From Clytia hemisphaerica (Eukaryota; Cnidaria; Hydrozoa; Leptothecata; Clytiidae): DNA of 64,000 nt. Shown in pieces: positions 1-59,088 of this stretch. A program made the position numbers and the translations under genes. The notes under the pieces were generated by a model that worked only from the letters and a program-made list of their open reading frames with translations, was not told the DNA's origin and made no database searches. The stretch lies in contig CACVBU010001170.1 in NCBI GenBank assembly GCA_902728285.1, positions 1,044,646 through 1,108,645 of the forward strand. Direction: 5' to 3'. Position 1 is the stretch's first letter, and each line of letters begins with the position of its first letter.

Positions 1-236
1 GTATCCGTCGTCGCAAACATCAAAAGCCCTTTGGATAGTATAGTAGGGTTTAAGAATGGTCAATCAAATTTAGACATTTGTATTAAGAAACAGGGGGGGG
101 GGCTGCCTACAGTCCGGCAGTTGGCAGAAAATCGAAAAGTTAATATCCGGCGTTTAGGATCCTTGGAACATAATTGAAAGTAAGAATATAATGAATATGA
201 ACAAAAGCTTAAAAATATAACTTTGTTTTTCAACAG

Positions 237-595
237 ATCGATATGCTGTTGTTGGAGTAATGACCTTACCGGCATTGTTTCGAGAAGATCCAAAACACTA
301 CTACGGAATTGATAACACCCTAACTCCTCGAATCAGTCATGCTAACCCTGACATTTTCGACGAACAAGAATTTTTCATCCACCTCGATGGCATCACTATT
401 GGAAAGTCGAGAGATCCTTTGACGGCACTGACATTGATGTACAGTTGCTACTACGTGTTCAACTTAGTATACCCAAAGGAGTTGCAAAGTTCCTTGGAAT
501 TTATCCAGCGTTTCTTGGTAAAAATCGGAGATGGTAGCAAGCCATCAGGCAAACTAATTACAGCAATCACAAAAATAAGAAAATATGCTGGTTGA
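237..595 (+). CDS. 3'-terminal exon of an unrecognised protein
   Basis: The sequence is open from a pyrimidine-rich AG acceptor at 235-236 to a TGA stop at 593-595, about 119 residues. The reading frame continues upstream of the internal ATG at 260, so I read this as a last exon and not as a stand-alone gene. Its start lies outside the window or in the unresolved first 230 bases. The C-terminal part contains the phrases EFFIHLDGI and YYVFNLVYPKEL followed by a FIQRF helix. From memory, this layout resembles the end of many uncharacterised animal proteins that often sit near transposons. I cannot assign a function. No signal peptide or membrane segment is visible. Confidence 0.55.
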
Positions 596-1377
596 AGTTC
601 AACCACTGTATCTTTTTATCTTTGTGACATTAGCAGTGATCAGTTTTGGCGATGGCTTGCTTTCGTCGCCGGTTTTAACCACGAAACTCAAATGAATAAA
701 TGAGTCCGTGCAGACATTTTGATATTTGAAAATTTACAAAGTTACGCTTCAACTTCTTTTCTTTGAGTTTGAATATTGAATATTGAAAGCACTATATTTT
801 CTTGTCAATGTTTTTTTGCCAAATGAAAATTAGAAAGGCTAAAACTGCACTCCTTGAGGTTTTTGTTTAAAATGCTCCTAGTTGTAATTTTTGGAATTTG
901 TTGAATTTAATTGCCCTTTGAAATAGTTTTATACAGAAAAAATCTGCTTTTAGATTGCATAATCTTACTGAATAGTAAATAGTGTATAGTTATAACGTAA
1001 TATAGAATCAGTTTTTGTCAAATTTTTGTCAATATTTATTGAATTATTTAACTTTCTTCTATGTAAAATTCATTTTATTCAATCTGCAAAAATAAAAATA
1101 GAACTTTTATCTCCCAAATCAACTTTTTGAGTTTTTCCTTCGATAATTATTCGCGTATATTCTAGTGAAGAAATGATAGGAAATTTAAAATACCTAGGGG
1201 GTAAAAGGAAATACCTTTTTCGCACCATCACATCTAAGTGATAAAAAAGAACCCCGAGGGTAAAAACTAAAAAAACTTTCGGCACTTTTGAATCCTTTTG
1301 GTGGTGTTTTTAAAGCACGTTAATGGTATATCAGACTAATTTTACAGTAAAAGGGGCGTTTTGCGGTATCGTTTGAA
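596..1377. other. AT-rich 3' flank
   Basis: This stretch follows the stop codon of the first exon. It is AT-rich, and I see no splice-flanked open frame in it. An AATAAA-like string near 695 could serve as the polyadenylation signal of the upstream gene. Confidence 0.4.
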
Positions 1378-1460
1378 AACTACCTTTTTAGTGACTTAAA
1401 TATACCTTTTTAGTGACTTAAATATACCTTTTTAGTGACTTAAATATACCTTTTGGAGGA
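1378..1460. repeat. 22-bp tandem repeat
   Basis: Three full units and one partial unit of about 22 bases (core CCTTTTTAGTGACTTAAATA) lie head to tail. Diffuse variants built on ACCTTTT and AAGGTAC continue to about 1570, immediately before the exon array. Confidence 0.8.
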
Positions 1461-1589
1461 CTTAAAAATTCTTTTGGAAGTATTTTCATACCTCAAAAGG
1501 TACCTAAAAGTACCTTGAAGGTACGAATGAAAAAAATACCTTACAGGTTTTTTAACCTTTAAAGGTACTAAAATGAACCGCTAAAACTT

Positions 1590-4500
1590 TCAGTGAAAGG
1601 ATATTTCTTTTGGACAGGGAACACATGTGAATTTTCTCACAAGGTGAATTTTGTGTTCAGGGAAAAATGAAGATACTAATCACATTCGTTTTTATTTTCA
1701 GTTGGTTGACTTTTGTACCTGATGACTCAAGGGCGTACAAACTAATGCAGAAAAATATTTCAAAAAAGAGCAATTCATGGTCGCAGTGGATGGAAGAACA
1801 AGAGGTCGTGCTCTACATCAACAGCGAAGAAAGGATTTTTCTTTTGGATAGGGAACACATGTGAATTTTCTCACAAGGTGAGTTTTGTTTTCAGGGAAAA
1901 ATGAAGATACTAATCACATTCGTTTTTATTTTCAGTTGGTTGACTTTTGTACCTGATGACTCAAGGGCGTACAAACTAATGCAGAAAAATATTTCAAAAA
2001 AGAGGAATTCATAGTCGCAGTGGATGGAAGAACAAGAGGTCGTGCTCTACATCAACAGCGAAGAAAGGATTTTTCTTTTGGACAGGGAACACATGTGAAT
2101 TTTCTCACAAGGTGAGTTTTGTGTTCAGGGAAAAATGAAGATACTAATCACATTCATTTTTATTTTCATTCAGTTGGTTGACTTTTGTACCTGATGACTC
2201 AAGGGCGTACAAACTAATGCAGAAAAATATTTCAAAAAAGAGGAATTCATGGTCGCAGTGGATGGAAGAACAAGAGGTCGTGCTCTACATCAACAGCGAA
2301 GAAAGGATTTTTCTTTTGGACAGGGAACACATGTGAATTTTCTCACAAGGTGAGTTTTGTGTTCAGGGAAAAATAAAGATACTAATCACATTCGTTTTTA
2401 TTTTCAGTTGGTTGACTTTTGTACCTGATGACTCAAGGGCGTACAAACTAATGCAGAAAAATATTTCAAAAAGAGCAATTCATGGTCGCAGTGGATGGAA
2501 GAACAAGAGGTCGTGCTCTACATCAACAGCGAAGAAAGGATTTTTTCTTTTTGGACAGGGAACACATGTGAATTTTCTCACAAGGTGAATTTTGTGTTCA
2601 GGGAAAAATGAAGATACTAATCACATTCGTTTTTATTTTCAGTTGGTTGACTTTTGTACCTGATGACTCAAGGGCGTACAAACTAATGCAGAAAAATATT
2701 TCAAAAAAGAGCAATTCATGGTCGTTTTCTCACAAGGTGAGTTTTGTGTTCAGGGAAAAATGAAGATACTAATCACATTCGTTTTTATTTTCAGTTGGTT
2801 GACTTTTGTACCTAATGACTCAAGGGCGTACAAACTAATGCAGAAAAATATTTCAAAAAAGAGCAATTCATGGTCGCAGTGGATGGAAGAACAAGAGGGT
2901 CGTGCTCTACCTCAAACAGCGAAGAAAGGATTTTTCTTTTGGACAGGGAACACATGTGAATTTTCTCACAAGGTGAGTTTTGTGTTCAGGGAAAAATGAA
3001 GATACTAATCACATTCGTTTTATTTTCAGTTGGTTGACTTTTGTACCTGATGACTCAAGGCGTACAAACTAATGCAGAAAATATTTCAAAAAAGAGGAAT
3101 TCATAGTCGCAGTGGATGGAAGAACAAGAGGTCGTGCTCTACATCAACACGAAGAAAGGATTTTTCTTTTGGACAGGGAACACATGTGAATTTTCTCACA
3201 AGGTGAGTTTTGTGTTCAGGGAAAAATGAAGATACTAATCACATTCGTTTTTATTTTCAGTTGGTTGACTTTGTACCTGATGACTCAAGGGCGTACAAAC
3301 TAATGCAGAAAATATTTCAAAAAAGAGGAATTCATGGCGCAGTGGATGGAAGAACAAGAGGTCGTGCTCTACATCACAGCGAAGAAGGATTTTTCTTTTG
3401 GACAGGGAACACATGTGAATTTTCTCAAGGTGAGTTTTGTGTTCAGGAAAAATGAAGATACTACTAATCACATTCATTTTTATTTTCATTCAGTTGGTTG
3501 ACTTTTGTACCTGATGACTCAAGGGCGTACAAACTAATGCAGAAAAATATTTCAAAAAAGAGGAATTTCATGGTCGCAGTGGATGGAAGAACAAGAGGTC
3601 GTGCTCTACATCACAGCGAAGAAAGGATTTTTCTTTTGGACAGGGAACACATGTGAATTTTCTCACAAGGTGAGTTTTGTGTTCAGGGAAAAATGAAGAT
3701 ACTAATCACATTCGTTTTATTTTCAGTTGGTTTGACTTTTGTACCTGATGACTCAAGGGCGTACAACTAATGCAGAAAAAATATTTCAAAAAGAGAGCAA
3801 TTCATGGTCGCAGTGGATGGAAGAACAAGAGGTCGTGCTCTACATCAACAGCGAAGAAAGGATTTTTCTTTTGGACAGGGAACACATGTGAATTTTCTGA
3901 CAAGGTTAGTTTTGTGTTCAGGGAAAAATGAAGATACTAATCACATTCGTTTTTATTTTCAGTTGGTTGACTTTTGTACCTAATGACTCAAGGGCGTACA
4001 AACTAATGCAGAAAAATATTTCAAAAAAGAGCAATTCATGGTCGCAGTGGATGAAAGAACAAGAGGTCGTGCTCTACATCAACAGCGAAGAAAGGATTTT
4101 TCTTTTGGACAGGGAACACATGTGAATTTTCTCACAAGGTGAGTTTTGTGTTCAGGGAAAAATGAAGATACTAATCACATTCATTTTTATTTTCATTCAG
4201 TTGGTTGACTTTTGTACCTGATGACTCAAGGGCGTACAAACTAATGCAGAAAAATATTTCAAAAAAGAGGAATTCATGGGCGCAGTGGATGGAAGAACAA
4301 GAGGTTGCGCTCTACATCAACAGCGAAGAAAGGATTTTTCTTTTGGACAGGGAACACATGTGAATTTTCTCACAAGGTGAGTTTTGTGTTCAGGGAAAAA
4401 TGAAGATACTAATCACATTCGTTTTTATTTTCAGGGGCGGATACAGGAATTTTTATCACTGTGTGAAAATTTCGGTTTACCCCGATTTTCCAATATGATC

Positions 4501-5535
4501 CCGATTTTTGAATCCGATAATTGAAGGAATACTCTACCCCATCGCTACATGCCACACACATGTATATAATATCTTTGATTCACTCTACTTATAAGAGCAC
4601 AGAATCATAGTTTCAAAATGTCCTCACCTCATGTTAGTTTATGTTCTTGTAAAAAACTTTAGATCAGACTCAGAAAGAGAGAAAACTTCGTGATTTGTTT
4701 ACACGTAAATCGCGATAGTGTGAAGGGTATGAAAAAGTGGTTTCACACAGTCTGAAGGAATGAAAATTCGTGAAAAGTATGCAAAACTATGTAATTATCC
4801 TCACGAAATTCTGCCAAAATAATCTCTACCGTTGAGGTATGATAACAAGATGAATGCGACTCCTTCAGTAACTTATTACGATGGAGAGTCTCTCTCACAC
4901 AAACAAAAGCTTCTTTGACGTCATTTTGAGCACAGAAAGTGAAACGTATCAACAGATGTACCTTTTGAACATTGTGTACAGAAAGCATTTATGTTTCTTT
5001 GAAAGAACAAAATATTTTTTCTATAAGAAAAAAATTATAGAAAACAATTTTAGTGTTTTTATTTTTTCGAATCGAGTAAATTGAGTGTGTGAATTCACCA
5101 CGTTCACATACCCTGTATCCGCCCCTGATTTTCAGTTGGTTGACTTTTGTACCTGATGACTCAAGGGCGTACAAACTAATGCAGAAAAATATTTCAAAAA
5201 AGAGCAATTCATGGTCGCAGTGGATGGAAGAACAAGAGGTCGTGCTCTACATCAACAGCGAAGAAAGGATTTTTCTTTTGGACAGGGAACACATGTGAAT
5301 TTTCTCACAAGGTGAGTTTTGTGTTCAGGGAAAAATGAAGATACTAATCACATTCGTTTTTATTTTCAGTTGGTTCACTTTTGTACCTGATGACTCAAGG
5401 GCGTACAAACAAATGCAGAAAAATATTTCAAAAAAGAGCAATTCATGGTCGCAGTGGATGGAAGAACAAGAGGTTGTGCTCTACATCAACAGCGAAGGCA
5501 GGATCTTTCTTTTGGACAGTGAACACAGGTGAATT
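1590..5535 (+). repeat. Tandem array of a ~235-bp unit containing a symmetric exon
   Basis: About 14 copies of a unit of roughly 230-240 bp. Each has a TTTTATTTTCAG acceptor, an exon of about 159 bp, a first donor (CAT|GTGAAT) and a strong second donor (AAG|GTGAGT) 17-20 bases on. In the last copy the exon is 5370-5528. It starts and ends in phase 2 and is a multiple of three, so serial splicing would keep frame. The peptide contains SQWMEEQEVVLYIN and ends LLDREH. Use of the second donor would include an in-frame TGA. Several copies (around 1699, 3961, 5135 and 5370) are open. Others have stops (for example a TAG near 2011), single-base indels or internal deletions (near 2720). A diverged relative of the exon lies at 6214-6568. 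The array is either a satellite derived from an exon or a decaying mutually exclusive exon cluster; the sequence cannot decide which. Confidence 0.85.
4432..5127. mobile_element. Non-autonomous TIR DNA transposon (696 bp), CAGGGGCGG family
   Basis: The element starts with CAGGGGCGGATACAGG and ends with the reverse complement, CCTGTATCCGCCCCTG. It is flanked on both sides by the 5-bp target duplication ATTTT (4427-4431 and 5128-5132). Removing the element and one ATTTT restores the array sequence exactly, in the polypyrimidine tract just before an exon acceptor. No transposase frame lies inside, so it would be mobilised in trans. The CAGGGGCGG terminus suggests hAT, but a 5-bp duplication is short for that group, so I leave the superfamily open. 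Confidence 0.85.
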
Positions 5536-5790
5536 ACTAGTTGTAAGTTAAAGTTTTAGTCTTGACGTGTTCGTATTGTCCTTTTGTAGGTACACTACGT
5601 TCATTAGTATGAAAAAGGTCTCCAAGCAATCTGACATCGTGAATGCGTTATATCCTACAAGGAGAATCTCTTCACCAGGGAATACTACCAATCTAAAGGG
5701 AATTATCTTCCTGATTATCTCTAAGCACTGATTGAAACTGCCAACCAGGATCCAACAATACCTATCGTCGAACCAGTAAGGGTAAGTAAC
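5370..5790 (+). pseudogene. Broken downstream exon pair following the exon array
   Basis: The last array exon (5370-5528) ends CACAG|GTGAAT, a better donor than in the other copies. It could join in frame to an exon starting at about 5589 after a TTTTGTAG acceptor. That second exon reads YTTFISMKKVSKQSDIV and then needs a one-base shift near 5665 to continue as NLFTREYYQSKGNYLPDYL. A TAA then interrupts the frame, which resumes as ALIETANQDPTIPIVEP up to a donor near 5780. One frameshift and one stop in about 190 bases indicate a dead gene copy. I do not recognise the family. Confidence 0.55.
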
Positions 5791-5934
5791 ACTACCAGTC
5801 TTTGTACGTCACTAGTCTAAAGTTGGCCTTATTACGCCTTTGGCTACACCAATTAGGACCGTCAGACACTCAGCATTAGTCTATTTAATAGGATTCGTGC
5901 ATCTGCTACATGCTATTTTCTATTCAAAAATACA

Positions 5935-6213: not shown

Positions 6214-6568
6214 ATTTACTTCTGGTCCTTCCCGAAAGAAGATTATAAGAATATCGCAAAAGAAGACCATAAGAATATCGCAAAAGAAGACCATAACAAT
6301 ATCCCAAAAGAAGACCATAACAATATCCCAAAAGAAGACACCAAAGGCAACAAAAACAAAACGAAAACAGAAGAACGCACCGAAACAAGCACCGACTCAG
6401 ACGACGACTTTGACGCGTACAAACAAATAAAACACAAAATATCTAGAAAGAGGAATTCGATGTCACAGTGGATGGAGGAGCAAGAAGTTATGCTCTACAT
6501 CAGTAGTGAAGACAGGAGGATCTTGCTTTTGGACAGGGAGCGCAGGTTCCAAGTCTTCCCAGCACCTG
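6214..6568 (+). CDS. Probable internal exon, acidic and Lys-rich, diverged homologue of the array exon
   Basis: The frame is open from just after a TAA at 6211 to a CCTG|GTAGGT donor at 6568. It starts with four 24-bp repeats at 6238-6333 encoding eight-residue units (EDYKNIAK, EDHKNIAK, EDHNNIPK twice). A Lys/Thr/Glu-rich linker and an acidic SDDDFDAYK segment follow. The end is a domain that closely matches the array exon: ISRKRNSMSQWMEEQE and LLLDRER, then FQVFPAPG. Conservation of this protein sequence through visible nucleotide divergence suggests past selection. I could not find a convincing acceptor, so the 5' limit is only the limit of the open frame. Function unknown. Confidence 0.45.
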
Positions 6569-6785: not shown

Positions 6786-7114
6786 AGGGGGAGGTGTTAG
6801 CCTAGAACAGTGTTCACTGAAACTCTAGTTATTGAAATGCAGCTTTTTTTCGCATGATGCATTAAGTTATTCTTTTATTGAAAAATACGTTTATAAATTC
6901 AGAAAACTTCAACCAATCCACAAATACCATGTTTAAGTGACTGGCAATGAGATCATACGTAACGCGAAGAGAATAAGAGGTGGGTGGATGACTTTCCTCT
7001 TCACAAAAATTCTACAAATCAAAATGGAGAGACTATACCGCATTAGTCCTGTGGACGGGATTACTCTCCAAACTCAACATTGAAGCAGGGACTTGGAAGA
7101 TATCTATCATATGT

Positions 7115-7219: not shown

Positions 7220-8290
7220 CAAATTTTTTTTCCGTAGACGGGCGGAAACATCTTTAATGGTCGGAAATATCATAGCGTAATGGTCGGAAATATCATTTGA
7301 TAGTCGGAAATATCTTTTGATGGTCGGAAATATCTAAAACTCTGAAAATTTGAAAATTTAATGGTCGGAAATATCATTTGATGGTCGGAAATATCCCGCG
7401 CTTTTAAAAATACCTCATCAGCAAAAAAATGTAAACAAAGATGGTAGCAAATGTGGTTCTGTTTCGTAGTTCTTTATATAGTATTTTACACAAGACGTAG
7501 ACAGCTTTTTAGGGAGAGAAAGTGGTATTGACCTTTTTATTCAACCACGACTCTTCTTTCTTTCTTGTCTTTTTTATCCTTTCCTCCTCTAGCCCCCACT
7601 GCTTTCAAATCACCCTAAATCTAGTCCTTACCTGGACACCCTCCCATTCTAGACCTTACCCGGGGCAGGGGGGGGGGCACTCGATCTGAAAACGACCATA
7701 CTTTCGGCGGAAAATTTGGCTTCCAAAATCGAACCCTTACAGTGCATCCAGCTGGCAGTGCATGCAGAGAAAATTTTGCCAAAAAATGGCCCTTACAGAA
7801 CATTTATGGCAAAATTTTCTATCCTTTACAGGGAAAAAAATCTTCAATTTGGCCCAAATCCTCAATTTTTACACGCTTACAGTGTATTTTTCTCATTTTT
7901 TTCTCCTGTCGTCCCTTACAGTGTAGTTCCGCCCGCCATAACCTCGAAAAAACGACCCTTACTTACGTGCCACGCCTCAGGTCATTTACCTTAAGTGCCC
8001 CCCTCCAAGAAACAGAACAGTTCTCAGATAGTGTCCCAAAAACTTAAAATAAAAAAACTACTCTTGTCTGGCACACACAACAAGTTGGCCACACTACACC
8101 ACCTTGGCTATTATCTTTGTTTACATTTTTTTGCTGATGAAGCATTTTTGAAAGCGCGGTATATTCCCGACCATTAAATTTTCAAATTTTCAGAGTTTTG
8201 GATACTTCCGAACATTAAAAGATATTTCCGATCATCAAATGATATTTCCGACCATTACGCTATGATATTTCCGACCATTAAAGATATTTG
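7220..8290. mobile_element. ~1-kb element with long inverted terminal repeats built from GGTCGGAAATATC
   Basis: The left arm, about 7235-7440, holds at least six copies of TGGTCGGAAATATC and ends near TTTGCTGATGAGG (inverted). The right arm, about 8110-8290, is its reverse complement and shares the same spacing and the inner word TGTTTACATTTTTTTGCTGA. The arms are about 180 bases. The left terminus (AATTTTTTTTCCGTAGACGG) resembles the sequence at 63080-63125, so the family has other copies. The core carries a CCCTTACAGTGCA-type repeat. No transposase is visible. The element interrupts the GACGAC satellite. Confidence 0.7.
7690..7960. repeat. CCCTTACAGTGCA-type dispersed repeat
   Basis: Four variants of CCTTACAGTGCA lie at irregular 50-80-base spacing, here inside the inverted-repeat element. 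The same words recur at 54895-55245, so this is a dispersed repeat family and not a gene. The open frames here share no protein signature. Confidence 0.55.
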
Positions 8291-9735
8291 CGACGACGAA
8301 ACCTTCGAGGACGAATCCAATGACGACGAATACAGCGACGACGAATCTAGTGACGACGAATCCAGCGACGACGAATCCAGCGACGACGAATCCTTCAACG
8401 TTGAATCCAGCAACGACGAAACCTTCGAGGACGAATCCAGTGACGACGAAACCTTCGAGGTCGAATCCAGCGAGGACGAAACTTTCGAGGACGAAACTTT
8501 CGAGGACGAAACTTTCGAGGACGAATCCAGCGACGTTGAATCCAATGACGACGAAACCTTCGAGGACGAATCCAGTGACGACGAATCTAGTGACAACGAA
8601 TCCAGCGACGACGAATCCTTCAACGTTGAATCCAATAACGGCGAATCCAGCGACGACGAATCAAATGACGAGGAAACCTTCAACGTTGAATCCAGCGACG
8701 ACGAAACCTTCGAGGACGAATCCAGTGAGGAAGAATCTAGTGACGACGAATCCTTCAACGTTGAATCCAATGACGACGAATCCAGTGACGACGAATCCAG
8801 CGACGACGAATCCTTCAACGTTGAATCCAGCGACGACGAAACCTTCGAGGACGAATCCAATGACGACTAAACCTTCGAGGACGAATCCGGTGAGGAAGAA
8901 TCTAGTGACGACGAATCCTTCAACGTTGAATCCAGCGACGAAGAAACCTTCGAGGATGAATCAAGCGACGACGAATCCAGTGACGACGAATCCAGTGACG
9001 ACGAATCCAGTGACGACAAATCCATTGACGACGAATCCAGTGACGACGAATCCAGTGACGACGAATCCTCCAACGTTGAATCCAGCGATGACGAAACCTT
9101 CGAGGACGAATCCAATGACGACGAAACCTTCGAGGACGAATCCAGTGAGGAAGAATCTAGTGACGACGAATCCTTCAACGTTGAATCCAGCGACGAAGAA
9201 ACCTTCGAGGATGAATCCAGCGACGACGAATCCAGCGACGACGAATCCAGTGACGACGAATCTAGCGACGACGAATCCAGTGACGACGAATCCAGTGACG
9301 ACGAATCCAGTGACGACGAATCCTGCGACGACGAATCCTTCAACGTTGAATCCAGCGACGACGAAACCCTCGAGGACGAATCCAATGACGACGAAACCTT
9401 CGAGGACGAATCCAGTGAGGAAGAATCTAGTGACGACGAATCCTTCAACGTTGAATCCAATGACGACGAATCCAGCGACGACGAATCCAGCGACAACGAA
9501 TCAAATGACGACGAAACCTTCAACGTTGAATCCAGCGACGAAGAAACCTTCGAGGACGAATCCAGCGGCAACGAATCCAGTGACGACTAATCTAGTGACG
9601 ACGAATCCTTCAACGTTGAATCCAATGACGATGAAACCTTCGAGGACGAATCCAGTGACGACGAATCCAGTGACGAGGAAACCTGCAACGTTGAATCCAG
9701 CGACGACGAAACTTTCGAGGATGAATCCAGTGACA
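8290..9735. repeat. 15/30-bp satellite, GACGACGAATCCAGY units
   Basis: About 1.45 kb of 15-base units (GACGACGAATCCAGT) mixed with 30-base variants containing CCTTCAACGTTGAATCC or CCTTCGAGGACGAATCC. Because the unit is a multiple of three and lacks stop-prone words, three frames stay open for hundreds of codons: forward DDESS-like, forward TNPATT-like (474 codons), and reverse LDSSS-like. Only one of these could be real and none has a splice or start context that singles it out. I treat it as satellite DNA. An acidic phosphoserine-type protein in the DDES frame would be interrupted by stops at about 8868 and 9588. Confidence 0.85.
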
Positions 9736-10002: not shown

Positions 10003-10250
10003 ATTGGAGCTAATTTATTAGCTTAGGTTAATTATCGATCCCGCATCTCCCGCACTAGGCCTTTCAGGGGTCACTCATCCCGCCTCTACAGGATATCTAT
10101 GCCGTCGGCTCTTTGCTGCCATTTTATCTATTTCAGTATCGGCTGCCGGCAATTTATCTTCAGCTAGTCCCGCCTGCAAGATCTCCTTAAATTGATCTCA
10201 CTCCTATTTCCTACCTTTTCTACTGCCTGATCAGATTGAGAATGAATTTA
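10003..10250 (+). repeat. A1 split direct repeat
   Basis: Matches A2 at 15331-15578 with no difference seen by eye. It holds the leader before the gag ATG at 10242 and includes the GATCCCGCATCTCCCGCAC and CCGTCGGCTCTTTGCTGCC words. Confidence 0.92.
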
Positions 10251-11846
10251 TTGACACTCAAAATGATCCTACAAAATATCTTTAAAATTATTATAATCCT
10301 TCATTTGGCCACAACTGTGTTGTGTGGAAAAAACAAGAAAGCAAAGATCGATGCACCCTTGATTGATGACGAACAAGAACGTCAATCCCACTCCAATGAT
10401 GGATCCTCCGACCCAGGCAGTTTTTCTCGAGAGAAATGGAACACTGTTCAGAGAGAGGAACTATCAATGTATGCTCAAAGTCATGGTCTCAACCCAACCT
10501 TTTTCTCCGACAACACCCTCAGGTCCGTGCTGTACGACGTGTACCACCCCCGTTCAACTACAACCAACCAAAATGACTTACCTAATTCATCCCCTGTGTC
10601 ACCAGAACGCACCCAACAAGATAATGGTCCACCAAATACCTTGTCTACAAACACCTTGCCAGCAGTTACTGCAACAGCCACAGGAGGTCATCAACCAAAC
10701 ATTCCAGCTACCACAATTGTGAGAGGAAACAACTCCTCGAACTTAACTCAACAAGAAGAACTATTGAACTTAATTGACGATAGACTTGTATCAACCATGT
10801 CTCGGTTCCTTACCAACAACATTCGTTCTTCCCCAGCACTTCCAACTTCAACCAATTTCGCTCAACCCACACAACTTAACCCGCCATCTTTATCTCGGCC
10901 AGTCCAAAACAACGTATCGGTACCGGCAAATATTTCACCTTTTCAACAACAACAAGACGTTCAAGATGGCCGCACACAGGATCTTTCGAACCTACAACTT
11001 CCCCCAGTCCCAGCGAACGTTATCAACAGAAACAGACGCGGTGAGTTCGTTAACTTTGATTCTCTACTTCCTCAGAACGTTGGGCGATCCACTAACACCC
11101 ATATTTCTTTAAACATCGACGGGGATAGTATTTCTTTGGCAAGTAATAACGACTCATCCTCTACCACTAAAGATAATTCAAAATACAAAGCCAAAGTCAC
11201 CGATTTCCTTACCTGGTCTCTTGCATGGACATTTTTTTTCCAAATCATGGTACAGTTTAACTCCCACTTGACGGAACAACTTTTACAATACCAACTTTAC
11301 ATTACCAACATGGCTAACCAGTACATTTTTTCTGCTTGGTACAATTATGACAAAGCCTTCAGACAATCTCTTGCGAACAACCCACATAAGGTTAACTGGA
11401 GCTCCTCAGACGGCTATATTTTTAACCTTTATGTTAGGGATAGAAATTTAAAATCTAAATGTTTTACCTGCGGTTCTAGTAACCACCTCTCCCCCTCTTG
11501 CCCTTTCGCGACAGGTAAGGGTCCTGGTTCTAGCAGTGGTAAGTTGCAACCGTTTGGCAGTGTTCAGCAGAGTTTTCCTAGGCTACGGGCCCCTGGGCTC
11601 CCACCCACCCCACCAGGCTCTTTCGGATCAAATTCCCCCAGCGTCTCTGCTAATTTTCAGGCTCCCTCCCACTATGGTTCCAGACCGCCCTTTCCTGCCC
11701 CCCAGCGTACCCAGACTGCCAGCCAGAGCGGCCAGGTATGTCGAAGATGGAACCAGGGACAGTGTACCAGATACAATAACTGCAAATTTCTCCATGTCTG
11801 TATCTTCTGTGGGGCCAGTAACCACCCAGGATACCAGTGCCACTGA
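10242..11846 (+). CDS. gag-like nucleocapsid protein of the YR retrotransposon
   Basis: The ORF has 534 codons from the ATG at 10242. The N-terminal half is Asn/Gln/Ser/Thr/Pro-rich and low in complexity. The middle has a hydrophobic Trp-rich stretch (LTWSLAWTFFFQIMVQF). The C-terminal part carries a CCHC-type knuckle (CFTCGSSNHLSPSC) and, at the very end, a CCCH finger (CRRWNQGQCTRYNNCKFLH) with a second CX2C...H...C unit. This finger pair is typical of DIRS/PAT gag proteins and would bind element RNA. The last 311 bases overlap the RT frame, which is shifted by +1, so the polymerase may be made by frameshifting or internal initiation. I see no internal stop. Confidence 0.85.
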   Translation: MNLLTLKMILQNIFKIIIILHLATTVLCGKNKKAKIDAPLIDDEQERQSHSNDGSSDPGSFSREKWNTVQREELSMYAQSHGLNPTFFSDNTLRSVLYDVYHPRSTTTNQNDLPNSSPVSPERTQQDNGPPNTLSTNTLPAVTATATGGHQPNIPATTIVRGNNSSNLTQQEELLNLIDDRLVSTMSRFLTNNIRSSPALPTSTNFAQPTQLNPPSLSRPVQNNVSVPANISPFQQQQDVQDGRTQDLSNLQLPPVPANVINRNRRGEFVNFDSLLPQNVGRSTNTHISLNIDGDSISLASNNDSSSTTKDNSKYKAKVTDFLTWSLAWTFFFQIMVQFNSHLTEQLLQYQLYITNMANQYIFSAWYNYDKAFRQSLANNPHKVNWSSSDGYIFNLYVRDRNLKSKCFTCGSSNHLSPSCPFATGKGPGSSSGKLQPFGSVQQSFPRLRAPGLPPTPPGSFGSNSPSVSANFQAPSHYGSRPPFPAPQRTQTASQSGQVCRRWNQGQCTRYNNCKFLHVCIFCGASNHPGYQCH

Positions 11847-13491
11847 TTCTTTCTTACTCGATTCTCTTCCTTTGCAGTTCTCTTTGCCGTCTTCTGTTGC
11901 TTCACCCATTAGGGTCTCTAATCTTGAGTTTCTTCTTTCGGGATACCCCCCTGAAATTGTTGAGTTTCTGATCCAGGGTTTTTCTCATGGGTTTCGTTTG
12001 GGTTTTGGTAATAGTCCTCTATCTCACACTGGGAGGAACAATTCCTCCGCCACGTTGGTTAGCGACAAGGTTTCAGCATCCATTTTGAAAGAACTAGAAC
12101 GTAGTCACACAGCAGGTCCGTTTTCCAATCCACCTCTTCCCAACCTTCACTGTTCTCCGCTTGGTTCTGCCCGTAAAAATGATGGTTCTTCTCGTATTAT
12201 TCTTGATTTATCTCAACCTGATGGTAGTTCTGTGAATGATGGGATCCCTATTGACTCGTGCCATGTTAAGTACTCTTCTTTCGATGATGCTGTTGATTTA
12301 GTACGTCTTGTGGGTAGGGGTTGTTTCATGGGAAAGATTGACATCAGACACGCTTTTAGACTTTGCCCTGTTCATCCCGACGATTGGCATTTACTTGGTT
12401 ACTACTGGAGATCTCGCTGGTATGTAGACTTGAGGTTACCTTTCGGACTTAGATCTTCTCCCTTCATCTTCACCACTTTCTCTGATGCACTGCAATGGAT
12501 TCTGGTTGTTAAGTATCACGTCACTGCCCTTGTACATTACCTTGATGATTTCTTTGTTGTTGGTAGAACTAAGGAAGAATGTCAGTACCGCATGGATCTC
12601 ATAGTTCAGGTCTTTGAGTTTCTTGGTGTTCCTATTGCAACGGACAAGTTTGAAGGCCCATCTCAGAAGATTGTTTTCCTAGGGATTGAAATTGATTCTA
12701 TCGACCTTACTATTCGTTTACCTGATGACAAGAAGAATCGTCTTTCTAGTACTATTGAATCATGGTTAGTCCGGAAGAAGTGTACAAAACGCGACCTCTT
12801 ATCTCTTATTGGTTCTCTCTCCTTTGCATGTAAGGTTATCAAGCCTGGTAGGATTTTCCTTCGTCGCCTAATTGATCTTTCTACAACGGTCTCAAAGCCC
12901 CACTATCATGTTTCCATCCCTAAATCAGTTCGAGACGACCTTAATATGTGGTTCACTTTTCTTAAATCTTGGAATGGGAAGTCCTTCATGTTGAGCCCTA
13001 TAGTTACCTCCCGATCCCTTTCGCTGTCCACAGATGCGTCCTTCTTGGGTTATGGCTCCTTTTTTCAGGGACACTGGTTTTCTCTTCCTTGGCCCTCTTC
13101 CACGGCTCAACACAAGGGACAACCCATCCATATCGCTATCCGTGAGTTATTCGCCATATATGCTGCTCTTACATGCTGGAGACGCTTCTTTTCCAACCAA
13201 CAAATCTTGATATTCACAGACAATGAGTCCATTGTCTCAGTTTGGGCTTCAGGTACTTCTAAGGATCCCAGGATCATGTGCATTGTCCGAGCTCTATTCT
13301 TTTTATCCGTAGACATTAATGCCTCCTTTACTTTCCAACATGTCGCAGGCAAAGACAACACCTTCTCTGACCTTCTATCTCGTCTTCAGGTAGAGAAGTT
13401 CAGATCAATCTGCCCAGCTTCAGATCAACATCCATCAGCCATTCCCACCTCTACAATGGACCTTTGGGACGAGATCTTATCCATTTCCTAA
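11536..13491 (+). CDS. Reverse transcriptase-RNase H of the YR retrotransposon
   Basis: The frame is 651 codons. The first ATG in it is near 11673, and the true start is uncertain because the 5' part overlaps gag. The RT domain spans roughly residues 190-430. The first catalytic Asp is in GKIDIRHAF (about 269), LPFGLRSSP is the next conserved block, and the YLDD active site is at about 335-338. The RNase H domain has STDASFLGYG, an ELFAIYAAL Glu, FTDNESIV and a final Asp in GKDNTFSDLLSR, so all four acidic ligands are visible. The frame is intact. Its TAA (13489-13491) is two bases before the ATG of the recombinase frame. Confidence 0.92.
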   Translation: MVSCNRLAVFSRVFLGYGPLGSHPPHQALSDQIPPASLLIFRLPPTMVPDRPFLPPSVPRLPARAARYVEDGTRDSVPDTITANFSMSVSSVGPVTTQDTSATDSFLLDSLPLQFSLPSSVASPIRVSNLEFLLSGYPPEIVEFLIQGFSHGFRLGFGNSPLSHTGRNNSSATLVSDKVSASILKELERSHTAGPFSNPPLPNLHCSPLGSARKNDGSSRIILDLSQPDGSSVNDGIPIDSCHVKYSSFDDAVDLVRLVGRGCFMGKIDIRHAFRLCPVHPDDWHLLGYYWRSRWYVDLRLPFGLRSSPFIFTTFSDALQWILVVKYHVTALVHYLDDFFVVGRTKEECQYRMDLIVQVFEFLGVPIATDKFEGPSQKIVFLGIEIDSIDLTIRLPDDKKNRLSSTIESWLVRKKCTKRDLLSLIGSLSFACKVIKPGRIFLRRLIDLSTTVSKPHYHVSIPKSVRDDLNMWFTFLKSWNGKSFMLSPIVTSRSLSLSTDASFLGYGSFFQGHWFSLPWPSSTAQHKGQPIHIAIRELFAIYAALTCWRRFFSNQQILIFTDNESIVSVWASGTSKDPRIMCIVRALFFLSVDINASFTFQHVAGKDNTFSDLLSRLQVEKFRSICPASDQHPSAIPTSTMDLWDEILSIS

Positions 13492-13493
13492 GA

Positions 13494-14788
13494 ATGTCTA
13501 TTGCTCCCTCAACAAAGAATACTTATCGATCAGGAATTCGCTCCTACACCACGTTCTGTTTTTCAAACCAACTTATTCCCTTTCCAGTCACTGAAGCTAC
13601 ATTGTGTTTTTATGCTGTTTCCCTAGCCAATCGCAAACTATCATATAAAACTATCAAAGTATATATATTTGGAGTTATTTATCAAAACAATATGCTCGGT
13701 CGATTCTCTCGTCTGTCGGATTTCAACATTTTATTCCAAACTCTTCGTGGGATTAGGCGATCTCAGGGCAACTCAGCTTCGCGACCTCCAAGACGCCCAA
13801 TTACGATTGAACACCTGCATGCTATTTTGGATTATCTCTCCTGCTCAGGATTTCAACCCACAGACAAGGCTTTGTTCAGAGCTGCTTCTCTTCTCGCCTT
13901 CTTTGGATTACTGCGAGTATCAGAGTACACGTGTCCATCCCCAAACAGATTTGATCCGAACTCCCACCTCTTAGCATCCAATGTTTCCTTCAACGCTAAT
14001 TTTACCATGATGTTTGTCAGAATAAAGGCAAGTAAAACAGACCCATTTCGACAAGGAACTACGATTAGACTATCAGCCCTATCCCACCGATTATGTCCTG
14101 TAGTAGCTATGATGAATTACCTACAACTCAGTCAGTCCAACACGTTCAGGTCCCCTATTTACTACAATCAGGGACAAAATATTTGGCACAAAAAGGAAAT
14201 TCACCGGGGTGTTTTGAAACCACAATCGATTTGTAAGTGCTCTAAAGTAGGTTCGAAGGGTAGAGTTTTAACTCTGAGTTTTAACGCTAGACTTAAGACT
14301 TAGGACCTTAGGATCTGAGGATCCAAAAGTTCAAAATTGGTCTAGTAGGGCTTGAAATATAGCCTAGAAACCCATAAATCCCTCCCAGATCGAAATACTT
14401 GATGAAATCAAGTTGAAGGCCTAAAAATTGACATTCTCGCTCGAACTTCAATTTTCGAAAAATTGTAAATTAGCCAAAAGTGCCAATATATTATGACCCT
14501 GATTGTAGATCCGGTGGTCAATTCCTTACAAGACGTCAGGTAGTCGTCCTTTTGAACTTAGCCCTCCCTAACGCCAACAATATCAACACTCACAGTTTTA
14601 GAATTGGTGGAGCCTCAGCCGCACTGTCATCGGGCGCTTCAGACTCTATGATTCGTTCACTAGGGCGCTGGACCAGTGACTGCTATTTACGCTACCTTAG
14701 ATTATCAGACAACGACATACACAATTTTCAATCCCGCATAGCATCATTAAAACTTACTTCTTCCTTTTGGGACCCAGACAAATGGTAA
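13494..14788 (+). pseudogene. Tyrosine recombinase of the YR retrotransposon, interrupted by a MITE
   Basis: The first part starts at 13494 (MSIAPSTKNTYRSGIRSY), a SAM-like core-binding domain. It continues through the catalytic domain with the first Arg in LLRVSEYT and the Lys-bearing beta strand VRIKASKTDPFRQG. Coding is then broken by a 341-bp insertion (14165-14505). The second part (about 14507-14788) holds the HSFRIGG box (His-x-x-Arg), GRWTSDCYLRY with the Trp and the nucleophilic Tyr, and the stop. All catalytic residues therefore persist on either side of the insertion, and the two halves are in different frames. The recombinase would integrate the circular cDNA. Confidence 0.88.
14165..14505. 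mobile_element. TA-flanked MITE inside the recombinase gene (341 bp)
   Basis: The left end CAATCAGGGACAAAATATT and the right end, reverse complement CAATCAGGGTCATAATATA, form terminal inverted repeats of about 25 bases. Both are flanked by TA (14163-14164 and 14506-14507), as for Tc1/mariner-type insertion. No ORF is present. The element separates the Lys-bearing strand from the HxxR box of the host recombinase. Confidence 0.8.
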
Positions 14789-23355: not shown

Positions 23356-24743
23356 TTTACTCTTTACTGTCGAACGTGCTAACCGCACTGGGCTCAACTT
23401 CAGTGTTTTTCAATCATTCGTAGGCCCAATTGTAAACTTAATAGGCTAAGTCTGATAAAAAATAGAGGGTTCTAGAATTGTTTTGAGTGCAAAAACTAGT
23501 CATTAATAGTTCCCGTTAAATTTCAAATTATCATCATAAAATTTGAAAAACTAATGTTAAGACTAGACGTTAAGAAAAGAAAAAAAATTGCTAAGGAAAG
23601 TCACCGAAACTGGTTTAAAGTAAATTGTGGAGCAGGAAATGGTAATATCAAGTTTCTACATATTTCATCTTTTAAACCTACAAATTTTTACATAAATCCC
23701 TTTCTTTGAATTCAGACATCATATCACAACAATCCTGATTTAACCACGCCCTTAAAAAGGAAAATTTTCAAAAAATGAAAAAATCACCCCCAGATATTCA
23801 CCCAAGGAACAAGTGTGCCAAATTTCAACCAAATCCGATCATTTTTAAAGTCTCCAGCCTGCCCCAAAGTTTTAGCCTCGTTTTGGCGAAAACTCGCGAC
23901 CACGCCCTTAAAAATGAAAATTTTCAAAAAATGAAAAAAAAAAACCCAGATATTCACCCAAGGAACGAGTGTGCCAAATTTCAACCAAATCCGATCATTT
24001 TTGAAGTCTCCAGCCTGCCCCAAAGTTTTAGCCTCGTTTTGGCGAAAACTCGTGACCACGCCCTTAAAAATGAAAATTTTCAAAAAATGAAAAAAATACC
24101 CTCAGATATTCACCCAAGGAACAAGTGTGCCAAATTTCAACCAAATCCGATCATTTTTGAAGTCTCCAGCCTGCCCCAAAGTTTTAGCCTCGTTTTGGCG
24201 AAAACTCGCGACCATGCCCTTAAAAATGAAAATTTTCAAAAAATGAAAAAAACACCCCCAGATATTCACCCAAGGAACAAGTGTGCCAAATTTCAACCAA
24301 ATCCGATCATTTTTAAAGTCTCCAGCCTGCCCCAAAGTTTTAGCCTCGTTTTGGCGAAAACTCGCGACCACGCCCTTAAAAATGAAAATTTTCAAAAAAT
24401 GAAAAAAACACCCCCAGATATTCACCCAAGGAACAAGTGTGTGCCAAATTTCAACCAAATCCGATCATTTTTAAAGTCTCCAGCCTGCCCCAAAGTTTTA
24501 GCCTCGTTTTGGCGAAAACTCGCGACCACGCCCTTAAAAATGAAAATTTTCAAAAAATGAAAAAAACACCCCCAGATATTCACCCAAGGAACGAGTGTGC
24601 CAAATTTCAACCAAATCCGATCATTTTTGAAGTCTCCAGTCTGCCCCAAAGTTTTCGGACAGACATACATACATACACACACACAGACAGACATACACAC
24701 ACACATACATTGTCAGATTCTAGCTCAACTGAAGTTGAGAATA
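23356..24743 (+). mobile_element. Tandem-repeat DNA element, second copy
   Basis: It begins GTGCTAACCGCACTGGGCTC with CTCAACTTCAGT and ends CTCAACTGAAGTTGAG, giving a terminal inverted repeat of about 12 bases. The centre (23750-24660) has six units of about 156 bases containing AGATATTCACCCAAGGAAC, CCTGCCCCAAAGTTTTAGCC and GACCACGCCCTTAAAAATGA. A run of ACATACA/CAGACAGACA then precedes the right end. The frames that stay open through the array (for example 261 codons at 23775) repeat one peptide and are a side effect of unit length near a multiple of three. No transposase is present. Confidence 0.8.
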
Positions 24744-51847: not shown

Positions 51848-52839
51848 ATTGTTTTGATATACCACTGCATTAGAAAAAAATTATTATTTTAAGTCTTTCA
51901 ATTTAAATGAAGTTCATGAGATTTCTTATTTCGTGATATTGCAACGTCTGAGAAGACCTCAAAGTCAAATATTTTGGCAAGAGTTGGATTATCCCAGGTG
52001 AGGCAATTACTTACGCAAAACTGGGTACGGGGACGTGCTGCTGGTCAGGATCCCTTTTTTAGGCTCTGAACGAGATGTCTGACAGGGTCCAAAACTTTAC
52101 TAATTTTTAAGATGTGTATCTAACAGGGTCGACCTTTGGTTATTTTGGACAATTTTCAGGATGGAAATTGCAAAATTGTCCAATTTTTTGACGGTCAACC
52201 ACACTAAAGCTCTGAAGGATCGGACCAAAATATGCCCAACCTTCAGCAGAATATAGCGTGTCGTAGCTTGTTTCCTCACGTCTGGTACCAGATAACGCGA
52301 AACCTTCTCGCGGATGAACTCCACCGCAAAATTTAATTTAATCCCCGAAAACGTTAACCCATCAAATTAGACTGAAAAATGCTTACTACACGCTAAATTT
52401 TAGCAATATTGGAAAATGTAGGCTCATGGTAATCTGCAACTCTACCGGCTGTAAACTCTTTTCAGCAAAAAGCCCGTTTGCGAATTTTCTTCTGCTTTGG
52501 GCTTATTTCTTAGATAGTGATTTGTCTTAGACTATAATACTTAATAAACAAGGTGGTTAGAGTAAAAATGTCCTGGGTTGAAAGTTTTTGAAAATAAGGC
52601 TAATAATATAACAGAATTAGAGCATGCTGAATAATGAAGATGAAAAGAAAAAGAAACAAGACGACTTGAAGTCGAAAATTTCGCCTAGAATTTGAACTAA
52701 ATGAGAAAAACAAGAAGTAGATGAAACTAATCTGAAATCTACTTTACATCGAGCCTTGATGAAACAATTTTACAACAAGAACAACGAAGCTTACAATTTA
52801 AGAACAATTGTTGTTTAATTTTTAAAAACTCTCATAAAT
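51848..52839. other. AT-rich non-coding stretch
   Basis: I see no convincing gene. A short minus-strand frame at 52100-52324 has no recognisable domain. Purine-rich GAAGATGAAAAGAAAAAG sequence lies just before the satellite. Confidence 0.35.
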
Positions 52840-54695
52840 TATATGCTTATAAAAAATAGATATGCTCTTATTGCACGCCATCCCTTGTCTACTTTGTAAG
52901 AACTAATTACCGAAAGGTATATCACCGTCTATCAAGAATTATTGATTTGATTCTTATAAAGTAAATGTTTAAGAAAAATAAATATGCTCATGTCATATTG
53001 TACACCAACCCTTGTTTACTTTGTAAGAACTAATTACCGGAAGGTATAAAACCGTCTATCAGGAATTATTGATTTGATTCTTATAAAGTATATGCTTATA
53101 AGAAAAATAAATATGCTCATATTGTGCGACGTCCCTTGTTTACTTTGTAAGAACTAATTACCGGAAGGTATATCACCGTCTATCAAGAGTTAGTGATTTG
53201 ATTCTTATAAAGTAAATGCTTATAAGAAAAATAAATATGCTCATATTGTACCCCAATCCTTGTTTACTTTGTAAGTACTAATTACCGAAAGGTGTATCAC
53301 CGTCTATCATAAGTTATGATTTGATTCTTATAAGTAAATGCTTATAAGAAAAATAATAATGCTCATATTGACCCCAATCCTTGTTTACCTTGTAAGAACT
53401 AATTACCGAAAGGTATATCACCGTCTATAAGAGTATTGATTTTCTTATAAAGTAAAGCTTATAGAAAAATAATATGCTCTATTGTACCCCATCCTTGTTT
53501 ACCTTGTAAGAACTAATTACCGAAAGGTATATCACCGTCTATTAAGAGTTATTGATTTGATTCTTATAAAGTAAATGCTTATAAGAAAAATAAATATGCT
53601 CATATTGTGCGCCATCCCTTGTTTACTTTGTAAGAACTAATTACCGAAAGGTATGTCACTGTCCATCAAGAGTTATTGATTTGATTCTTATAAAGTAAAT
53701 GCTTATAAGAAAATTAAATATGCTCATATTGTACCCCAATCCTTGTTTACCTTGTAAGAACTAATTACCGAAAGGTATATCACCGTCTATTAAGAGTTAT
53801 TGATTTGATTCTTATAAAGTAAATGCTTATAAGAAAAATAAATATGCTCATATTGTGCGCCATCCCTTGTTTACTTTGTAAGAACTAATTACCGAAAGGT
53901 ATGTCACTGTCCATCAAGAGTTATTGATTTGATTCTTATAAAGTAAATGCTTATAAGAAATTAAATATGCTCATATTGTACCCCAATCCTTGTTTACCTT
54001 GTAAGAACTAATTACCGAAAGGTATATCACCGTCTATTAAGAGTTATTAATTTGATTCTTATAAGTAAATGCTTATAAGAAAAATAAATATGCTCATATT
54101 GTACCCCAATCCTTGTTTACCTTGTAAGAACTAATTACCGAAAGGTATATCACCGTCTATTAAGAGTTATTGATTTGATTCTTATAAAGTATATGCTTAT
54201 AAGAAAAATAAATATGCTCATATTGTACCCCAATCCTTGTTTACCTTGTAAGAACTAATTACCGAAAGGTATATCACCGTCTATTAAGAGTTATTGATTT
54301 GATTCTTATAAAGTAAATGCTTATAAGAAAAATAAATATGCTCATATTGTGCTCCGTCCCTTGTTTACTTGAAAGAACTAATACCGAAGGTATATCACCG
54401 TCTTCAAGAGTTATTGATTTGATTCTTATAAAGTATATGCTTATAAGAAAATAAATATGCTATATTTGCGCCATCCTGTTTTTTTGTAAGAACTAATTAC
54501 CGAAAGTATTTCACCGTCTATCAAGAGTTATTGATTTGATTCTTATAAAGTAAATGCTTATAAGAAAAATAAATATGCTCATATTGTACACCAACCCTTG
54601 TTTACTTTGTAAGAACTAATTACCGGAAGGTATAACACCGTCTATCAGGAATTATTGATTTGATTCTTATAAAGTATATGCTTATAAGAAAATAA
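52840..54695. repeat. Satellite of ~122-bp units, about 15 copies
   Basis: Each unit has TTGTTTACTTTGTAAGAACT, ACCGAAAGGTATATCACCGT, ATTGATTTGATTCTTATAAA and AAAATAAATATGCTCATATT. The period is about 121-123 bases. Units from 53600 to 54350 are very alike, and at least two sub-variants alternate (TGCGCCATCCC against TACCCCAATCC), so part of the array may have spread as a dimer. Around 53310-53500 and 54360-54500 the units have many small deletions, which could be real decay or sequencing error. Confidence 0.92.
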
Positions 54696-54879
54696 AGAAA
54701 AATCAAAACTGTGAAGCTAAAGACACAAAGATATAATGACGTAATCCAAAGAAAACCTGCGAAGATCTTCCGTGGTTATACGAGCGTGTAATTTGTAAAT
54801 TGATTTTAGTGAGTTCGTCCACCGTATCAAGTACTTTCGTTTTCTAAATTTTCGCACTCGATTTCGAAACGACGGTATG

Positions 54880-55963: not shown

Positions 55964-57052
55964 TCACACTTTGGAAGTGGTTATGATTCCTGTTAAAGGA
56001 CCACCGCTTGTCATCGGTAAAACACTATCAATCTTCCATCCAGATGCTTCAAAAATGGCTCTATATTGGTCTTGGTTACGCTCTTTACCACCGAATATTG
56101 CCATCAACATATCCAAATTTTTTTGACTCTTAGCAATTGGATTCGTTACACCTGGCTTAGGAAGGATTGCATCGCAAATCACAACTTTGCCATCCGAAGG
56201 GAGAGCTTTGTGTAAAGATTTCATGATCTTGATGCAAACCTCATCATACCAATCGTGAAGAATGTGCTTCATGAAAACAACATTGCATGATGGGATCGTC
56301 GAAGAGTCGAACATATCTCCAGCAACCATTTGAACGCCTGGGATCGACTCAGCTTTCTCAATTACCTCTGGAAGATCAAAGTTTATGGTGGTAATGTCAG
56401 GGAATTTCTCTTTGACCGCTTTCATAACAACCCCATAGCAACCAGCGATGTCGCAAACTATTTTCCCATTGAATGCCGACCAATCAAATTCATCTAAGAT
56501 GCCTTTCAATTCACTATACGAAAAGAAAGACATGAATTCGTAGAAAGGTTTTCCAGACTCAGGGTGTTCTTTATAATAGGGGACGTCACGTTGTCCGTTA
56601 GCCCTCTCGAATGGAACTTCACCTTTGGCTTGACCTGAGGTGATTTCTGGCAACGTCGCCCAGGCTTTCCATGCAGGTTGTTCCGATAAGTGATGAACAC
56701 CACAAGCCATACTAGGTTGGCCTTCAACCCCCGTCTGCAGTAACTTCCCTTGTAATGCAAGACTATAACAATATTGGTTTTCCCCATCTTCGCTTGCTGT
56801 TTCAACGAAAATTCCAACTTCAGCTAAAAGTCTCATTTGACGAAACAGCAAATCTTGGTCAACGTTCTCTCCAAGGCGTTGGCAAATCTCTTTCATGGAT
56901 AAAGTTTCAGCTCCAATGACATCGGGAATCCTCAGTTTGACCATGGTGTAAAGACATTGTTGCGTGAAAAATGCCATATTAAGATCAAGGATTTGCGGTA
57001 CTGCTGATTTGATTTCATCTTCTGTTAACATTGCTTTTTTCATTGAAAACAT
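55964..57052 (-). CDS. SAM-dependent O-methyltransferase, ASMT/COMT family (362 aa, intronless)
   Basis: Transfers a methyl group from S-adenosylmethionine to a hydroxyl. The family includes acetylserotonin O-methyltransferase, plant COMTs and bacterial antibiotic methyltransferases. The substrate cannot be told here. Residues about 10-110 form the helical dimerisation domain (ILDLNMAFFTQQCLYTMVKL; EICQRLG). The Rossmann core follows: motif I VCDIAGCYG (199-207, Ala in place of the usual first Gly), the acidic loop FDLPEV (225-230), GDMF (245-248), and KHILHDW (262-268) with the likely catalytic His. The length (362) fits the family. The frame is intact with no intron, unlike the spliced host genes around it, which could mean retroposition or lateral gain. 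A tandem pseudogene copy lies 3.6 kb away. Confidence 0.88.
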   Translation of the reverse strand: MFSMKKAMLTEDEIKSAVPQILDLNMAFFTQQCLYTMVKLRIPDVIGAETLSMKEICQRLGENVDQDLLFRQMRLLAEVGIFVETASEDGENQYCYSLALQGKLLQTGVEGQPSMACGVHHLSEQPAWKAWATLPEITSGQAKGEVPFERANGQRDVPYYKEHPESGKPFYEFMSFFSYSELKGILDEFDWSAFNGKIVCDIAGCYGVVMKAVKEKFPDITTINFDLPEVIEKAESIPGVQMVAGDMFDSSTIPSCNVVFMKHILHDWYDEVCIKIMKSLHKALPSDGKVVICDAILPKPGVTNPIAKSQKNLDMLMAIFGGKERNQDQYRAIFEASGWKIDSVLPMTSGGPLTGIITTSKV

Positions 57053-59088
57053 CTTTGATAAGTTTCCTCAGAATCGGCAACAACCAATATTTTCTTAGCT
57101 TCAAGGTCTGAGAGTTCAATACAACCTTTGTCGAACACTATTTCTAAATCTAAATGATCAAATAGATTTATAAAAATGAAAATCATGAGAGCTACAGTAT
57201 CTGGCCCCCAAAACGTCGATCAAATCTAAATCTAAAAATTTTCTCAAATCTAGAAGAAAAGAGGTTTTACAAAAATCTTTGCTGCATGCAAAACTTTAAC
57301 ATCTACTTTATTTCCCGAAAGCTCTTTTTCGAAATTTCCAATTTTAACAGTATTTTTCAATCACTTAAAAGATAGGTTGCTAGCAAAAACGTAGGTTTGC
57401 AATTTCAGCGATTTCTCGAGATCTCTTTAAGATATGAATACAAAACTTTGACCATAAATTTGTTTGATAAAATCTTTACAGTATATCCCTTGTTGTTAAA
57501 ACGCAGGTTTAGGGCCCCCAAAACGTAGGCGTAGTTACAATCAAATTATTAAGCCCAGTGGCAATAGTGGGAGAAGAAACTATGAACACATTTTTATTTT
57601 CCCTTAAATTTACGACCCGATGCTCGATGAATGTAAAATTTACGATTTTTATAGAATATTTCAAGATTTTCGATGATGCAAGTCCAAACTGAAAATTTAG
57701 AAATTTTCAAAATGACAATTTTGATTTAACGACTTCTTAATTAAGTTTCTGCAAACCAATTTCTTTTGAAAATGGTTCCATTCATGTATGGAATATGTTG
57801 TGAAAATTTTAGAAAAACAGCTGAACTGGAACTGAAAATACTAAGCTTTTGAAAGTTTATTTTTTCCTATACTTTGCAAAAATATGACAGAATTAGCCTT
57901 TTTTTTGCTGATTCAGCGAAAATCTTAATATATGATATTAATTTTTTGTTATAAACTATCAAGTCAAGCTGGTAGGAACGGAATTCCAAGATTTTTGCTG
58001 TTACTCATATTTAGAATTTTCGGTTTTATCAATGTTGATTTTAGGGCCCCAAAATACTGGTTGGCCTTTAAGATACTTTTAAGATATCTTTTACTCATCT
58101 TCTAAAGTCACAGATGTTATCTGCATTTTCTGAAATGCATTAGGTGTCGAAAGTTTCTTATATCCCATTTTCATTATCCAAGGAGCTAGAGTGAGTTATA
58201 CGCAATTTGTATCTAATTTTGGTGTTTTAATATTTCCAAACCATCAAAAACATACTCATTTTTAAGTATAACCATCATTGCATCAAAATAAACAAAAATC
58301 GTCTAATTCTGATAAATCTACAGGTCAGAATCCTCATTTTAATGACGACCTACGTTTTGAGGTCCGTCTCCGTTTCGGGGGCCATAATATGGCGTGTTAT
58401 GACAAAAGGAAGTAACTGCAAATTTTTGAATTTGAGAAAATTGATTAAACACGTTTTTTTTTGGTATTGAAAAGAAAAGGCTTTCTGAGACATCACAGTA
58501 AGTTAATCTTGTTACTAATAGAAGGTATTAACATATAAAAGGGTTGTGGCAAGCAGAATACCACATGACATTATATACTGCATAATCAAACTTTTACAAT
58601 CTTAAAGACTTTTTTTATTAGACAAATTTAATAATATATTTTTAAGAGTTTCTGCAAAAAAAAAAAAATTCTATTAAGGTTGGTTTGGTTTTCAGTAGCG
58701 ATAAGAGTAAAAAGGTATTTTTAACAAAGAATTCTCGTGCCTATGGAATAAAATAGGTTGAACAAATCGTTAGAAAAAGTTGAAAAATGAGGTTACACAA
58801 AAAAAAATTTATATATAATAATAAAAGATTTTCAAAACAAATTGGTCATAAAAAACGTAATGAATAAAATAGCTTAATTACGGCTAGAGAGAAAAATAGT
58901 TCTATACAATAAATAATTAGGTAGTAAAATATAAAAAGGGGTATTTACACGTTAAAATACTAATAAAAGTTTTGACAAAGAAAAAGTGTTAAGTTGAAAC
59001 GAAAATGCTAAAAAATACAATTATTCCTATCCTATATCAAGGGGTCAATGAAAAACATTGGGTAATACTAGAATACGCAACCATCCAC

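Follow-up and report, generated by a model that had tools for sequence, protein, structure and literature searches.

The tandem array near the start of the analyzed window (a 64,000-nucleotide stretch of DNA from the hydrozoan Clytia hemisphaerica, C806:1044646-1108645 of a 417-Mb genome) is very probably a young, local, satellite-like array that grew from a truncated gene duplicate, and not a cassette of spliceable exons. Each unit corresponded to one continuous segment of a parent gene, which fits the second of two options raised in an earlier note on this DNA, namely, that a real gene's exon had seeded a satellite.

Extent and units of the array

A tandem repeat search and unit alignment revealed 14 exon-bearing starts from 1702 to 5370, with one partial copy ahead of them, arranged head to tail as nearly identical units with a period of ~234 bp; the 14-copy array that the earlier note had placed at 1590..5535 is indeed present. 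The exon starts, all on the plus strand (as are the units below), lay at 1702, 1936, 2174, 2408, 2643, 2795, 3030, 3261, 3494, 3727, 3963, 4201, 5136, and 5370. The partial first unit (the 3' part of the exon and part of the intron) started at ~1593-1596, ended at 1701, and abutted the end of a dispersed element. It was followed by a first block of 12 units (1702..4431; the one at 2643 truncated), by an intact unit (5136..5369) taken as the reference unit, and by the last unit (5370..5535), which carried 8 substitutions relative to the reference unit and after which the unit intron did not follow. Since the 12 full units matched by DNA search were 94-100% identical to the reference unit, the array is not a chance pattern, and since substitutions between units amounted to about 1%, it would be young. 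Inside the unit starting at 4201 and ahead of the reference unit lay a 696-bp inverted-repeat element (4432..5127, no strand assigned) with ATTTT at both flanks, as read by eye; this element had at least 46 matches in the genome, many of them spanning positions 1-696 of the query.

The exon frame was fully open in 6/14 units. The earlier note had remarked on stops and indels in some copies, and this was narrowed rather than overturned: two units carried the same TAG (one of them also with short indels), unit 5 (start 2643) was truncated by the loss of 82 bp, and the rest were broken solely by short indels inside 2408-3962, that one TAG being the only frame break other than short indels and the truncation. 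Variants shared at five-unit spacing (78A in both units 2 and 7, 20A in both units 6 and 11) suggest copying in blocks. A 4-bp TTCA insertion common to units 2, 8, and 11 does not fit a simple five-unit block.

Short indels and assembly quality

All 24 short indels (a count that leaves out the 82-bp deletion and the TTCA insertion common to three units) fell by unit alignment within an interior stretch, 2408..3962 of the plus strand, with none in the remaining 1687 bp (p 2e-8). Single bases accounted for 22 of the 24, and 19 of those 22 lay in runs of two or more. Substitutions were not concentrated there, with 10 inside the stretch and 14 outside when the last unit and the partial unit were omitted (Fisher p 8e-6, indel versus substitution). 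Many of the interior indels may be assembly errors, because all lie in interior units and mostly in base runs; an unpolished repeat interior would look so, and frameshifts in 2408-3962 are therefore not yet to be counted as decay.

Two other tandem arrays of the window served as controls, and they were mixed: a 124-bp array (52830-54696) had at least one indel in each of 14 copies compared, with single-base bursts in four of 15 copies, whereas a 156-bp array (23743-24655) had one indel across five copies compared. With the confinement of the indels and their base runs on one side and these uneven controls on the other, we consider it somewhat probable that the array is real but that its copy number and interior indels are in part artefacts that arose because the repeat interior could not be polished during assembly, a reading compatible with a satellite-like array of a gene fragment.

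Origin of the unit in a small gene family

Searched against the 417-Mb genome, the unit peptide gave 23 matches among the best-scored candidates, 17 in the window and 6 elsewhere (two on C35, two on C794, and one each on C823 and C617), to which the unit DNA search added one more, weak, on C823. The outside matches were single; no second array was found elsewhere in the genome by the protein and DNA searches with the best candidates scored, nor did this whole-genome search of best candidates recover the many loci or large abundance of a satellite. Three of the relatives (L009 on C35, L010 on C794, and L011 on C823) had, by eye and by comparison, an ordinary gene layout with intron, exon, and donor in order: a short exon SGRGKGIPSG ending two bases into a codon, an intron, an exon WLTFVP...RFQVFPRPG, a donor, and a further exon VTGNEINRNAKRIRG, beyond which came an acidic DDES-rich stretch.

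One unit was a single continuous match to L010:4840-5076, made up of ~75 nt from the intron's 3' end followed by ~160 nt from the start of the exon after it. Because the unit aligns in one piece to this intron end and exon, its acceptor and phase were inherited from the gene. As in a partial gene duplicate, the matched segment is contiguous and breaks off inside an exon; the parental exon extends 23 nt past the exon end claimed by the earlier note.

Two further loci, L012 and L014 (C794:142052 and C35:424291), were considered and rejected as gene copies: no intron was seen in either by eye, and both resemble decayed processed pseudogenes of the parent gene. Pfam, PDB, and plasmid searches yielded no credible relative of the unit peptide, of the frame upstream of the array, or of the joined parent exons: Pfam scores were all under cut-offs (Iron_traffic E 0.026, Phage_tail_X 0.18, POP1_C 0.21, SOP4 0.0098, DUF7832 0.027), and PDB scores were weak (miniGq 0.057, IscU 0.47, 10-kDa heat shock protein 0.5).

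Splice-site motifs in the units

The claim that each unit has its own acceptor and is entered in phase 2 was borne out: the exon start was preceded by a ...TTTTCAG or ...CATTCAG acceptor in 14/14 units, and the phase was by eye the same as in the parent gene. Donors were scored as positions matched, out of 9, against MAG/GTRAGT (the slash marking the exon end). A weak site, CAT/GTGAAT (7/9), was present in 12/14 units, so that the weak donor proposed earlier stands in these; the proposed exon length of 159 nt from acceptor to weak site held in only 7 of the 12, the other 5 carrying short indels, and in the unit at 3494 it arises from two cancelling indels. The strong site lay 17 nt 3' of the weak site (15 in one unit) and scored 9/9 in 10 and 8/9 in 2 of the 12 units having the weak site; in these 12 scored units, choosing it would add 17 nt and an in-frame TGA, just as had been proposed. 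The last unit had CAG/GTGAAT (8/9) and lacked the strong site, and in truncated unit 5 the donor search window gave no site.

The parental donor (CCTG/GTAGGT in L010 and L011, CCAG/GTAAGT in L009) was not seen in the units. Compared with the introns of L010, L009, and L011, the stretch around the strong-donor junction scored 24, 25, and 33 (best of 200 shuffles 22, 22, and 25); against the parental exon end and donor of the same three it scored 12, 13, and 18, within the shuffle range. For all three relatives, then, the strong donor matches the parental intron and not the parental donor; an identification with the latter, suggested by nearness in one multiple alignment, was discarded when direct comparison favoured the intron. 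The units thus share the acceptor of the gene, whereas their strong donor matches its intron. The weak site was no more than a few bases away from the junction, and the breakpoint itself is uncertain over about 12 nt.

Flanks of the array

To the left, positions 1..1595 (plus strand) belonged to a dispersed, DNA-transposon-like element with inverted repeats, of which they form the right-hand part; an open frame lies at 239-595. Counting the window's own, this frame had 27 protein matches genome-wide, and the similarity of element copies to the window ended at 1595-1597 in 4/4 fetched copies. A copy on C75 was bounded by inverted ends CACTGAAAGTTTTAGCGG, 3.1 kb apart; the left end of the window's own copy was looked for and not found. 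As an upstream exon of the array's gene, frame 239-595 was rejected, since a stop closes it and it is part of the dispersed element. Four parental exons had no credible match, other than the unit itself, across window positions 1-1700 and the 29.7 kb preceding the window (lowest tblastn E 0.08); in these 31.4 kb, the relatives were matched at the DNA level, by the coordinates as read, outside the parental exons. A 34-bp scrap of the unit intron (L015:6126-6159) sits upstream of the window, less than 4 kb from its start, in a patch of small duplicated fragments.

To the right, 5548..5927 (plus strand) was a duplicated fragment of another locus, with 5548-5862 matching C886:138004-138316 at 97% over 315 bp and a second match to C886:137689-137755 at 96% over 67 bp. 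Compared with the C886 copy, whose exon is open, the exon at 5590-5781 has gained 2 bp and a TAA; the "5589 exon" that the earlier note had taken for a downstream exon is thus a frameshifted copy of the C886 exon, with a stop. Constant exons of one gene were accordingly not present on both sides of the array, none lying upstream in 31.4 kb and the downstream one being broken and from another locus. It is quite unlikely that the array forms the 5' part of a chimeric gene whose last unit is spliced through CAG/GTGAAT to the 5590 exon: the phases match, that 8/9 donor being in phase with the exon, and the C886 copy is open in the same frame, but the window copy carries the insertion and the TAA. 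The C886 similarity starts only at 5548, and the parts were therefore joined by rearrangement.

Farther right, a unit-exon relative at 6403..6568 (plus strand) kept the parental 3' exon end and donor, its 5' part being other sequence, partly a 24-bp repeat; acidic repeats lay between the C886 fragment and this relative. Of the conserved relative placed by the earlier note at 6214-6568, the part at 6403-6568 was confirmed. The next exon of the parent gene, VTGNEIIRNAKRIRG, followed at 6938..6979 (plus strand; frame set by eye against the L010 exon), within 6795-7084, which matched L010 at 81%. At 8290..9710 (plus strand) an array of ~95 copies of a DDES-type 15-bp unit resembled the parent gene's acidic (DDES) exon region; two parts of the family have therefore been amplified at one locus. 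With a transposon-like element on one side and further duplicated gene fragments on the other, the array sits in a patchwork of duplicated pieces.

Elsewhere in the window, open frames at 10191-14303 matched reverse transcriptase with RNase H, probably from a retroelement; the matches of further frames there stayed below the Pfam cut-off. On the minus strand, two O-methyltransferase-like genes or gene fragments lay next to each other, at 55964-57067 and 60615-61644 (the first by Pfam scan). The 124-bp tandem array at 52830-54696 resembles the 14-unit array in its single-base indel bursts in some copies.

Coding constraint in relatives and units

The dN/dS values were 0.19 and 0.06 among L009, L010, and L011 (2/3 pairs computable), 0.09-0.18 between these three and the array or last unit, and 0.08-0.19 in 4/5 comparisons for the 6403 relative; many of the dS values were near or above 1, often saturated, and therefore rough. 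Where computable, values of 0.06-0.19 show coding constraint on the relatives. For the units, the earlier note had proposed comparing silent with non-silent differences. With the partial unit counted and the last unit set aside, the array exons had 10 distinct substitutions, namely, 6 missense, 1 nonsense, and 3 silent. Because the expected silent share was 0.17-0.25 (2.1 expected of 10 at kappa 2; P 0.24-0.46), there was no clear excess of silent changes, and substitution rates were alike in exon (10/159) and intron (6/75; p 0.59). The comparison thus detected no coding constraint of the units' own, ten changes being too few to exclude mild constraint, and the array carries the past constraint of its parent gene and, in this small sample, none of its own. 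Between the last unit and the reference unit, dN/dS was 0.36, which would fit some early constraint.

Proposed history and alternatives

The history that we favour for this satellite-like array would begin with a copy of one member of the small gene family that was broken inside an exon. A piece of ~234 bp, running from the 3' part of an intron ~160 nt into the exon behind it, would then have been duplicated head to tail, and the array would have grown by unequal exchange or slippage, blocks of several units probably being copied together. We infer both the growth mechanism and the absence of function from sequence. Against this explanation we count the open frame in 6/14 units, the acceptors kept in 14/14, the last donor in phase with the 5590 exon, the distribution of the TTCA insertion, and the dN/dS of 0.36 between last and reference units.

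The phase-2 acceptors, the open exons, the in-phase weak donor, and the strong donor at 9/9 in 10/12 scored units speak for a functional set of alternative exons, of which varying numbers would be joined without loss of frame while the strong donor, through its TGA, switched units off. This first option of the earlier note is mostly unsupported and very unlikely: the strong donor derives from parental intron, it scores above the weak site and its use would introduce a stop, the substitutions look neutral (in a small sample), no parental exon lies in the 31.4 kb compared upstream, and the downstream exon is broken. It is likewise very unlikely that transcripts from the adjacent transposon-like element cross the array and use the kept acceptors and new donors to join differing numbers of 53-residue modules in frame; if true, a gene fragment would here be giving rise to a repeat protein.

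Comparison with known systems

In tandem alternative exon arrays such as that of Dscam, an exon is repeated with its acceptor and phase is preserved. The units described here likewise repeat exon and acceptor with phase kept. Unlike those arrays, their donor does not come from the gene's donor, they show no detectable constraint among themselves, they are ~99% alike by substitutions, and a surrounding gene was not found. Partial gene duplicates are a recognized kind of event, as outlined in PMC3449122; like them, the source copy of the array is part of an ancestral gene and ends inside an exon beside unrelated sequence, but here the fragment was multiplied further into a tandem array. Satellite DNA growth by local amplification is likewise outlined in PMC5615363, and the array resembles such DNA in its head-to-tail, nearly identical units; it differs in being one small locus of ~14 units instead of a widespread family and in having a gene fragment as its seed. 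Among the titles and abstract openings listed in literature searches for exon- or gene-derived arrays, none described this array.

As evidence for a new splicing system the array carries little weight, and it warns that a duplicated gene fragment can bring along splice-site-like motifs as a by-product. It is a clean example of how a gene fragment can seed a tandem array, in a genome that also contains relatives of the parent gene.
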